Positions 26,174-29,763 of a stretch of 64,000 bases of DNA are shown in pieces; within the stretch, counting starts at the first letter, position 1; each line of letters begins with the position of its first letter. The DNA is from Ignavibacteriota bacterium (GTDB lineage: Bacteria > Bacteroidota > Ignavibacteria > Palsa-1295). The DNA lies in NCBI GenBank assembly GCA_003151825.1, contig PLYO01000029.1, positions 1-64,000 on the forward strand, in the 5' to 3' direction. The position numbers were made by a program, and so were the translations under genes. Under the pieces are notes generated by a model that worked only from the letters and a program-made list of their open reading frames with translations, was not told where the DNA came from and ran no database searches.

Positions 26174-27925
26174 TTAGAAGCGGATGTATGCCTTAAAACT
26201 CCAATCGGGATACGATGCAGGGCTTAGCCCCAATCCATACGCCGCGCCATAGCACAGGCTGAATCCGAGGCCGTGCATTTCGCCCAGCGGCTCGCACGCG
26301 ATACCGATCTGTCCCGAAAGCAATGGCGCGGACGTTACACCGGTTTGTGCCGATGACCACGTACCATAATAAGCAACTCCAATAAGTGGCTCGATGATGC
26401 CGTTGAAAAATTTGACAGGAATATATTGAAGTTGAAACCCTAAGGATTTTGGCGAAAGGAAAAAGTTGGATACATTTCCACGAAGGGTGTAGTTGAGATA
26501 TGGAACCGGAGCATACATCATTCCGAAGGAAACATCGAACGAAAGCGCGGGCCGGTTGGATTCGATTCCGATAAAGAAATTCTCTCCCGCTGCATCGCCA
26601 ATTCCGAATCCGGCGCGGCCATGCACATCGGCAATGGCGCTCTGTTGGTTGGCATTGACGATTTTCTGCAATTGATCCTTATCGCTTTTCGATTGATCGA
26701 GCGTCGATTTCATTCGTTCATTCAGGACTTGCTCGCTGTCAATCTGCTCGTTCTCTTCCGCAAGCAGCGCGGCCCAATCTATTTTTTTGCCGCCGATTTT
26801 TAGCGTATCGGATGGGCCTCCGCTGCGGCTGCTCTGGCTGACGGTAATCGGCTCGCTCTTATGGAATTCGCGTGTCTCCGTATAGATGACTTTCCCGGTT
26901 ACGGGTTCGATCGCCGTGAACCGGTAGCGATAGGGGCCGTCGGCAAATTTCGACATATCGAGCTCGGCCAGATAATTCGCCGGCTGCCGGAGGGTATCGA
27001 TAATCGTGAGTGAATGCTCGGTATCCACGACGCTTAAAAGCTCGACTTTTGCTTCGCACGTTCGCGCGACAGAATAAGGAATCGAAAGCCGGTTGGAAAT
27101 ATCGGAGACGGTTTGCTGGCCGAGCTTAAAATCGAGCTTATCGCTCTTGATGATGATGTGCTCGTCGATAAACCGGGAGAAATCATCGTCGAAATCGAGC
27201 ACGGCGCCGCTTTCGAGCTGCACGATAACTGCGGCCTTGGCGAGCGATTCATTGGCGATCCGAAGATAGGCGGGGTCACCGGTCTTCGCGCTAAATTCTT
27301 TCACAAAACGCTCGAGTCGAACGTAATTATCGGTGTGATTGGACTCGATCGTGCGCTCGATTACTACAAAATAGCGCATCGAGTCTTGGCTGGTCGGATC
27401 GGGCAGCGGCAAGACACCGATGTTCACCGTGTACGAAGCCTCATCTCCGGAAAGCGCCTTCGAAAGATTGCTCACCATCGGCAAGGCGAGCGGCGTGCGA
27501 GCGGTGCCGACATAATACATGATCGGTTGCTCGGCTTCCGTGCGATGAGCGGTATCGGGGCCGGTCGCGGAGTGACTGTAATAATGGGGCTGTAAATGGA
27601 AACTCGCCTCGTAAAGAAGATCCTTCGACGAGACACTAAGCCGGGCATAATCGGCTTCGGTTCGCACCATTTCCGGATGGAAATCCGCGCCGGCCGTGGC
27701 CCATTCTTCTTTTATTCGCTCATTGATTAGCTCCTCGATTGTCGCATCGTCGGAAGATTTCACAACTTTAGCTCGATCGGGGACGGCCTGAGCTATATTA
27801 CTTTGTTGCGCAACACTTTCCCGCGCACCTCCGAGGAGTGCAAGAAAGAACGCCAGCAGAACAAAGTCTCTGGTATGCGAGCGAATAGTTCTCGCAGAAT
27901 GAACGCGAAGGAGGAATCGCAGCAC
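26174..27925 (-). CDS. Secreted protein with probable C-terminal outer-membrane beta-barrel, third gene of sigma/anti-sigma locus A
   Basis: Signal-like N-terminus; last ~150 aa alternating amphipathic strands ending in aromatic residue (SFKAYIRF). Confidence 0.55.
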   Translation of the reverse strand: MLRFLLRVHSARTIRSHTRDFVLLAFFLALLGGARESVAQQSNIAQAVPDRAKVVKSSDDATIEELINERIKEEWATAGADFHPEMVRTEADYARLSVSSKDLLYEASFHLQPHYYSHSATGPDTAHRTEAEQPIMYYVGTARTPLALPMVSNLSKALSGDEASYTVNIGVLPLPDPTSQDSMRYFVVIERTIESNHTDNYVRLERFVKEFSAKTGDPAYLRIANESLAKAAVIVQLESGAVLDFDDDFSRFIDEHIIIKSDKLDFKLGQQTVSDISNRLSIPYSVARTCEAKVELLSVVDTEHSLTIIDTLRQPANYLAELDMSKFADGPYRYRFTAIEPVTGKVIYTETREFHKSEPITVSQSSRSGGPSDTLKIGGKKIDWAALLAEENEQIDSEQVLNERMKSTLDQSKSDKDQLQKIVNANQQSAIADVHGRAGFGIGDAAGENFFIGIESNRPALSFDVSFGMMYAPVPYLNYTLRGNVSNFFLSPKSLGFQLQYIPVKFFNGIIEPLIGVAYYGTWSSAQTGVTSAPLLSGQIGIACEPLGEMHGLGFSLCYGAAYGLGLSPASYPDWSFKAYIRF

Positions 27926-27960
27926 GTTGTTGTCAGAAGCAAAAACTTCCCCGAGGCCGC

Positions 27961-28764
27961 TCAGAGCCGGTCGTGGCTCGAAACCACCACTTCATGTTTG
28001 GCGGCGTCGATTTCTTTTGCATAACGCCGCGAGAGCATAACATCCGCAGGATCCGAAGTTTCCGTTGCCGAGGTTTGTTCGCTTGCCTCAGGCAGGCCTG
28101 CCGGCGTAGCATTTTGAGCAAGGCGGGTGGGCGCTAACACCGTATGCTTAGATGCACGCAAGGAGGCCATGTGGCGAATTATTGTCAAGGGTTCGCTTGC
28201 CATGGATGCGTGTATCGCTGCCGCCGGAGCGGTTAGCGAAGCACGTTCCGCGTCCAACTTCGTGGAGGATTGTCCCGCCATCTGGCGATGGTTTGCGCTT
28301 TGGGTAACGAACCATGTTCCACCAATCACAAGCAGCAGCGAAAGCGCCACAAGATTGGCCCTCGTCGGCCAACGGTGCGCTCGGCCAGACATGGTGGAAG
28401 CAATAGCGCCACGGTCGCGGAGGAAACCGCGCATCTTCGGCGCGACGTCCATCTGGGTGGCGTCTGTTACGAATTCTTCGTTCGCCATGGCCTCCATGAT
28501 TTGCTCGATGCGGGCGCGTGTCCGCGCATCGAGATCGTCGGCGAGTTGAAATCGTTCGTCCTCGCGAGTCATGCGAATCGCGCCTCGGACGACGAGATAT
28601 TCGCGCAAAAGCATTCGCGCTTCTTCCGAGCGGGCGAGCCGGTCGAAGAGCACGGTCTCGAGTTCTTTGCGAACGAGTTCGCCATCGAGATATTGTACGA
28701 TGAGTTCTTCGGTGGTCGAAGCGTGATTCCCGTTGTTAGTCGGGGTAGGTCTCTTGTTCATCAT
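27961..28764 (-). CDS. Anti-sigma factor-like single-TM protein (locus A)
   Basis: EELIVQYLDGELVRKELETVLFDRLARSEEARMLLREYLVVRGAIRMTRE; TM NLVALSLLLVIGGTWFVT; directly downstream of ECF sigma gene. Confidence 0.75.
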   Translation of the reverse strand: MMNKRPTPTNNGNHASTTEELIVQYLDGELVRKELETVLFDRLARSEEARMLLREYLVVRGAIRMTREDERFQLADDLDARTRARIEQIMEAMANEEFVTDATQMDVAPKMRGFLRDRGAIASTMSGRAHRWPTRANLVALSLLLVIGGTWFVTQSANHRQMAGQSSTKLDAERASLTAPAAAIHASMASEPLTIIRHMASLRASKHTVLAPTRLAQNATPAGLPEASEQTSATETSDPADVMLSRRYAKEIDAAKHEVVVSSHDRL

Positions 28765-28794
28765 GGTCTTACTGTTTTTAAAATCCTTTGGATG

Positions 28795-29763
28795 TTAAAT
28801 TTTCTTTTTGCTTAATTGCTCCGAAGCGTTCGTCCTATTATCGTCTTCCAAAACCGGCAGAAGCATTTTTCGGAGTCGGGCCTTGGCCCGGAATACACGA
28901 ATGCGGATGGTCGAAAGCGAGGTGCCCGTCATGCGTCCGATCTCTTCATACGTATATTCCTCATATTCGCTAAGAATGAGCGCTTCCCTAAATTCATCGG
29001 GGAGTTTTGCTATCGCCGCAAGCAGCAGTCCGATCTGCTCGTCCTTCGCCATGCGTTCCAGAGGATCGTCGCTCGCAGAAAATGCCTGGCGTACCTCTTC
29101 GGCAACGCCCCCGTCGAAGTTTACGCCGTCGCCGGCGTATTCCACGCCTTCATGCTGGCGAAATGTCCGTTTTTTCGCGCTCAGGCACGAGTGGCGCGTG
29201 ATTGTAAAAATCCACGGCTTGAAATCGCCGCCGGTAAACGTATTTCGATATTGCACGAGCCGAAGAAAAACGTCCTGAAAAGTATCTTCGACCAATTCGC
29301 GTGACAGTCCCGCGCTAAAAAGTACGTGTGCGCAATACGCATAAATGCTCGATTTGTACCGTTCGTAAATCGAAAAGAAGGCGTGGTCGTCGCCCTGTTG
29401 ATACAGCAGAAAGAGCGATTCGTCCGAAGGCTCTCCGGAGGGATAGCCGTTCGGTCCTGCCGCAACAGCCGATCGGGGCTTCTGTTTATCAATGAACGAA
29501 TGTAAACCTGCGGACGCCTTCGGTCCGGCTGGCCAATCGCCCTTGCGCCGCAAGGCTTCGCGACTTGCGTGAGCAAGAAGCGATGGATCGTTTGGCTCTT
29601 GTCCGCCGAAGGCTTCCGGCACGTTTTCGCCGGACAGCGCGGAGCTATCCTCCGGATTCCACGAACGCTCCGGCCCGGATGGGGTTCCATCCTCGCGTTC
29701 GTCGTCCGGCCGGTCCAACCGTTCCTCGTGCATCTGCCTTACTGCGGCTTGCATGACATTCAT
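28795..29763 (-). CDS. ECF-type RNA polymerase sigma factor (locus A)
   Basis: YKSSIYAYCAHVLFSAGLSRELVEDTFQDVFLRLVQYRNTF ... LPDEFREALILSEYEEYTYEEIGRMTGTSLSTIRIRVFRAKARLRKML; unusually long N-terminal extension. Confidence 0.93.
   Translation of the reverse strand: MNVMQAAVRQMHEERLDRPDDEREDGTPSGPERSWNPEDSSALSGENVPEAFGGQEPNDPSLLAHASREALRRKGDWPAGPKASAGLHSFIDKQKPRSAVAAGPNGYPSGEPSDESLFLLYQQGDDHAFFSIYERYKSSIYAYCAHVLFSAGLSRELVEDTFQDVFLRLVQYRNTFTGGDFKPWIFTITRHSCLSAKKRTFRQHEGVEYAGDGVNFDGGVAEEVRQAFSASDDPLERMAKDEQIGLLLAAIAKLPDEFREALILSEYEEYTYEEIGRMTGTSLSTIRIRVFRAKARLRKMLLPVLEDDNRTNASEQLSKKKI

Follow-up and report, generated by a model that had tools for sequence, protein, structure and literature searches.

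The window analyzed here, i.e., the whole stretch of 64,000 nucleotides, contains at 26174-29763 on the minus strand a group of three genes (locus A) encoding an ECF sigma factor, an anti-sigma factor with a single transmembrane (TM) helix and an outer-membrane protein (OMP), in this order and with intergenic gaps of 30 and 35 bp. All three ORFs were recovered with the coordinates, strand and order given in the initial annotation. At a second ECF locus of the window (locus B), the anti-sigma factor is fused to a barrel (Table 1). The sigma factor of locus A has a long and variable N-terminal extension of about 115 aa, which starts with QMHEER, a feature kept in most members of the genus. A gene pair for a TonB-dependent receptor and a DUF4249 protein (22771-25973, plus strand) is convergent with locus A and adjoins it only in some close relatives.

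The locus A trio is present in 12 of the 13 family genomes, with one copy per genome, and in none of the remaining class genomes surveyed. A survey of the gene neighborhood in relatives revealed that the order sigma, anti-sigma, OMP is kept in 12 genomes from several genera: the anti-sigma and OMP orthologues adjoin behind the sigma gene in all seven genus genomes searched and in five further genomes of the family. By profile search, the full-length OMP was found in 12 of 13 family genomes, compared to none of the 281 other genomes sampled from the class (294 in total), and its orthologues share 40-62% identity with the copy in the window. In the viral collection, no relatives were found.

Table 1. 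Coordinates of the features of locus A and locus B in the window.
Feature	Position	Strand	Basis
Predicted ECF promoter of the locus A operon, GTGTAATTATTTTCGGCGAGCGAGATTATT	29883..29912	-	conserved upstream of sigA; ends 119 bases ahead of the start codon of sigA
Locus A ECF sigma factor (sigA)	28795..29763	-	Pfam Sigma70_r2 (E=9e-9) and Sigma70_r4_2 (E=2e-14); orthologue clade; alignment
Locus A single-TM anti-sigma factor, 267 aa	27961..28764	-	sequence
Cytoplasmic anti-sigma domain, aa 17-88	28501..28716	-	hhalign to locus B and to the C4-type fused family
TM helix, about aa 135-155	28300..28362	-	hydropathy; AF2 helix in orthologue
Conserved C-terminal periplasmic tail, aa 238-267 (...MLSRRYAK...EVVVSSHDRL), candidate OMP-docking peptide	27964..28053	-	identity; AF2 read-through model
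Locus A OMP, 583 aa: signal peptide, beta-rich periplasmic domain, Ig-like domain, long helix, 8-stranded barrel	26174..27925	-	sequence, AF2, Foldseek
Ig-like domain inside the OMP, akin to T9SS type A sorting domains, aa ~263-350	26876..27139	-	sequence matches
C-terminal 8-stranded barrel of OMP, aa ~433-583	26177..26629	-	mapped from modelled orthologue; Foldseek OmpX/NspA/OmpA/Ail
Locus B ECF sigma factor	37910..38587	-	Pfam
Locus B fused anti-sigma factor: anti-sigma domain, TM helix aa 94-122, disordered tether 122-245, 8-stranded barrel 253-438	36577..37896	-	AF2, Foldseek
Third locus B operon gene, for a secreted protein or lipoprotein of 212 aa	35932..36570	-	sequence; similar-sized third gene follows in family genomes

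The single TM helix predicted for the locus A anti-sigma factor was confirmed by hydropathy, which placed it at aa 136-154. Its N-terminal region had been noted to resemble that of the fused protein of locus B, and this similarity was borne out by BLASTP (E=2e-4) and by profile-profile comparison with hhalign (E=5.7e-10, probability 96.6%). The C4-type fused family is matched by the anti-sigma domain of locus A with E=3e-10 and by locus B with E=1.7e-21 (hhalign). Judged by these sequence comparisons, the anti-sigma domains of loci A and B are homologous. The Pfam domain RseA_N scored 13.8 bits against a cut-off of 24 (E=0.09), and the protein was accordingly not classed as RseA-type. Conservation along the locus A anti-sigma factor is concentrated at both ends: the mean column identity is 0.67 for the cytoplasmic domain and 0.66 for the last 30 residues, but drops to 0.29 across the linker of 82 residues (156-237). 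The C-terminal end, D-R-L/M, is nearly fixed, and the conserved tail is absent from the other anti-sigma factors of the family.

For the fused protein of locus B, AlphaFold2 (AF2) predicted helices in the anti-sigma domain, a helix at 94-122, which partly has a pLDDT below 50, disorder at 122-245 and eight strands at 253-438, mostly with pLDDT values of 75-92; a TM segment is also present in its orthologues. In a Foldseek search, the barrel of locus B matched NspA, OmpA, Ail and OprF at probability 1.0. Beside locus B, a third, weakly sigma-like gene, a downstream TM gene, a small gene and a gene for a large secreted protein are located on the plus strand (38812-43098). The view that the window holds two loci made of the same parts, once separate and once fused, was right as to the shared anti-sigma module, but locus B is not the single fused locus, as many fused forms occur per genome. 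In the genome of the window, at least five ECF loci with a recognizable family domain have an anti-sigma factor with a barrel-length extension, and several further loci encode a TM anti-sigma factor with a long C-terminal extension in which no domain was recognized. In a survey of 248 Bacteroidota genomes, the anti-sigma domain was found in 81, and several families of the class have reading frames of 390-530 aa.

The architecture of anti-sigma domain, TM helix, disordered tether and C-terminal barrel has been described for the Dma family, of which Dma1 and Dma2 of Bacteroides thetaiotaomicron are one-piece anti-sigma factors spanning both membranes (PMC13088901). Locus B has the same succession of anti-sigma domain, TM helix, long disordered linker and outer-membrane barrel beside an ECF sigma gene, and is therefore, by architecture, an ordinary though new member of the Dma kind. 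Locus A likewise has an N-terminal anti-sigma domain encoded next to an ECF sigma factor, followed by a TM helix and a long linker, but, unlike in locus B, the barrel is encoded by a separate gene instead of forming the C-terminus of the same polypeptide. It further differs from Dma in that the barrel protein carries a signal peptide and extra periplasmic domains and the anti-sigma factor a conserved tail. The novelty of locus A is that it is a split form of this recently described kind.

The third gene product of locus A had been described as a separate barrel-like protein ending in SFKAYIRF. This end is of the outer-membrane type, and a signal peptide is present as well. AF2 modelled the C-terminal part of a close OMP orthologue with eight strands, the number also obtained for locus B, and the modelled barrel matched OmpX, NspA, OmpA and Ail in Foldseek at probabilities of about 1.0. 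The strands are antiparallel, and the closing C-terminal strand ends with a phenylalanine, as in outer-membrane 8-stranded barrels. The description as a barrel is thus sound, but the protein is more than a mere barrel, because about 390 residues of periplasmic domains precede it. Residues ~263-350 match type IX sorting domains found elsewhere in the class (matches ending QNYPNPFNPTT...LGQEV...KKMLLLK). As this Ig-like domain is internal and lies ahead of the helix and the barrel, it is not a sorting tail. No Pfam family was assigned to the locus A OMP or to the fused protein, and searching the PDB by sequence with the profiles of A and B returned nothing useful.

To serve as a Rosetta-stone argument in the strict form, the separate protein must be homologous to the fused domain, and it is here that the proposed pairing of loci A and B fails. 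Compared with hhalign, the barrels of A and B gave only E=0.05-0.07 at a probability of about 1%, and when the A barrel was set against B plus seven further families of fused barrels, the best result was E=0.016 (probability 3%). The fused barrels B, C44, E, F, C22 and C25, on the other hand, are linked to each other with E-values from 1e-4 to 4e-19 (e.g., B-C25 1e-6, B-F 2e-5, C44-E 2e-5 and E-F 4e-19). As several fused barrels match mutually and the A barrel matches none of those tested, locus A is not simply locus B cut in two. That it is the split version of the fused locus B could not be demonstrated: fold class and strand number agree, the sequence does not. Locus A is the shared anti-sigma module with a different barrel partner.

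A phylogenetic tree of the sigma factors, unrooted with respect to the direction of change, placed the locus A orthologues in one clade (100/100), which lies among sigma factors with fused anti-sigma factors. Grouping the latter sigma factors in one clade was rejected (p-AU 0.011), which is what an interconversion of fused and split forms would lead one to expect. A second split clade (99/97) comprises loci with a sigma factor, a short TM anti-sigma factor and a separate barrel protein (L085:261-3957, L089:1007-4765, L212, L214), the latter having OmpA-like C-terminal domains when the sequence is read by eye. In a third, small group (L209:1973-2968, L213:2045-3259), a propeller-like domain replaces the barrel after the anti-sigma domain and TM region; by eye, the propeller is BNR/YCF48-like with TTDGGxxW repeats. 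The position in the tree, together with the fact that both the A and B barrels are eight-stranded and match the same PDB barrels, would fit an origin of locus A in which a fused gene of the Dma type, like that of locus B, underwent fission, with the barrel diverged beyond detection and periplasmic domains added. Since the fused barrels B, C44, E, F, C22 and C25 are interlinked while the A barrel stands apart from them, such a strict split is considered unlikely.

In the orthologous locus L064, the anti-sigma and OMP genes lie in one frame and were therefore modelled with AF2 as one read-through chain. In this model, which was computed for a concatenated chain from a 17-sequence alignment and has a low mean pLDDT of 61, the OMP part consists of the beta-rich periplasmic domain, the Ig-like domain, a helix of 46 residues and the eight strands. 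The tail of the anti-sigma factor reached pLDDT values of 51-70, compared to about 25 for the linker, and was predicted to form a helix and a four-residue strand. Because this is the sole strand of the anti-sigma part, its partner must lie in the OMP part of the model. The model gives a hint of a contact between tail and OMP, which is suggestive but not conclusive, and the tail is plausibly the predicted dock for the OMP; it could also serve another partner.

The notion that anti-sigma factor and barrel act together can no longer be based on domain fusion in the strict sense; given the conserved operon structure, the conserved anti-sigma tail and the analogy to Dma, a functional pairing of the two proteins is likely. 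The explanation preferred here, which we put at an even chance, is that the locus A operon is a trans-envelope ECF signalling system with two proteins doing the job of a one-piece Dma-type anti-sigma factor. The tail would cross the periplasm and dock with a helix and a strand onto the OMP's periplasmic portion. This contact would be altered when something changes at the cell surface or outer membrane, whereupon the anti-sigma factor may be cleaved or change its shape, and the freed sigma factor would activate its own operon along with a limited number of genes whose products are secreted, many as type IX cargo. The barrel partner would have been recruited separately or be very diverged, and would not be the cut-off barrel of a fused family.

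The conserved tail also lends itself to another explanation. OMP genes are often under ECF control, and PDZ domains read free C-termini of the D-R-L/M kind, which is what the conserved free end of the tail presents. Thus, the OMP could be a mere co-transcribed target of the sigma factor and the tail an RseA-like site for a periplasmic protease of the PDZ type, the signal being something other than the OMP itself. We regard this as rather unlikely, as one specific OMP adjoins the anti-sigma gene in 12 of 12 genomes and is never found apart from it, and as the tail is not common to the other anti-sigma factors of the family.

Sigma factor, anti-sigma factor and outer-membrane protein are encoded in the same order in FecIRA, for which the C-terminus of the anti-sigma factor was proposed to contact the N-terminus of the outer-membrane protein in the periplasm (PMC9249621). 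Locus A agrees with this system in gene order and topology, with a periplasmic C-terminal region in the anti-sigma factor and N-terminal periplasmic domains in the OMP, so a surface signalling system like FecI-FecR-FecA, with the OMP binding a ligand that acts as the signal, was weighed too. However, the OMP would have to replace the TonB-dependent receptor with a barrel of only 8 strands, and FecR, STN, plug and TonB-dependent barrel domains were not found when P0001, P0002 and the OMP orthologues were scanned with Pfam. A Fec-kind system is therefore judged improbable; the likeness is one of working and not of membership, and the explanation overlaps with the preferred two-protein signalling operon.

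The upstream regions of sigA have GTGTAATT...ARRTTMTT in common. The motif GTGTAAY-N15-ARRTTMTT occurs exactly upstream of sigA in 11 of 12 genomes and with two mismatches in the twelfth, whereas it was found upstream of none of 77 other sigma genes. In three genomes, the start of the longest sigA ORF overlaps the motif, which places the true start downstream. In total, about 60 motif sites were counted in the 13 family genomes versus none with the reversed control, compared to 8 versus 4 in the other 28 genomes together. Genome G010 (67% complete), in which no locus A was found, still has two such sites. Among the 46 motif sites listed, 26 lie at most 60 nt from a start codon. An N-terminal hydrophobic segment resembling a signal peptide is present in 28 of 44 first downstream proteins, as opposed to 45 of 135 in the background. 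Furthermore, 14 of the 44 carry the type IX sorting domain TIGR04183 versus 5 of 45 window genes (Fisher p=0.016), a modest enrichment that includes repeated counts of some orthologous targets. With at least 150 sorting-domain matches in the genome, no more than a small fraction of them would be involved. As the sigA promoters read GTGTAAT and most other sites GTGTAAC, another sigma factor could own the latter sites. Away from sigA, the genes behind the motif encode for the most part secreted proteins, type IX secretion cargo among them, and are predicted from sequence to form a putative regulon.

The other two exact sigA-type promoter sites in the genome of the window (G000:C43:168173 and G000:C47:68754; L297, L298) both precede genes for secreted proteins with short leaders. 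In five genomes of the genus, a gene for a 243-aa TPR protein with YbgF/BamD-like repeats (L302:496-1224, L309, L317, L324, L333) lies 325-378 nt behind the motif and is followed by a gene for a large protein. A BamI match among the downstream genes, considered as a link to outer-membrane assembly, was dropped, since in the protein checked it is a fragment of a propeller-repeat protein.

Taken with the predicted targets, the internal Ig-like domain of the OMP makes it worthwhile to test for a connection with type IX secretion. In Porphyromonas gingivalis, type IX secretion is controlled by PorXY-SigP, the ECF sigma factor SigP being reported to act with PorXY (PMC4800418, PMC7712824). A full PorX homologue, the T9SS response regulator, is encoded in the window at 43172-44755 on the plus strand (NF052313, E=6.5e-212), about 13 kb from locus A. 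Besides this, the two systems are alike in that an ECF sigma factor is linked, in locus A by prediction, to type IX secretion; they differ in that locus A has its own membrane anti-sigma factor and OMP and that its predicted targets are secreted cargo and not known genes of the secretion machine.

All parts may be joined in one tentative reading, whose holding in full is doubtful. Locus A would be the two-piece counterpart of Dma, its tail adding a strand to the periplasmic portion of a dedicated OMP that bears an internal Ig domain like those of type IX sorting. The cell would thereby monitor its surface or the status of type IX secretion and answer with a private regulon of secreted proteins via GTGTAAY promoters, and at least two changes between fused and split forms, with different barrels, would have taken place.

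These results bear on how a signal from the outer membrane reaches the anti-sigma factor in the inner membrane in the new Dma family. The natural split version offers a small, testable contact in the form of a short conserved tail, a defined partner and a predicted promoter as reporter. The findings suggest that in a little-studied branch of the Bacteroidota one anti-sigma module was joined to several unrelated outer-membrane or surface domains, namely several barrel families, an OmpA-like protein and a beta-propeller. If the joint reading is true, this module would be a socket for interchangeable outer-membrane sensors.
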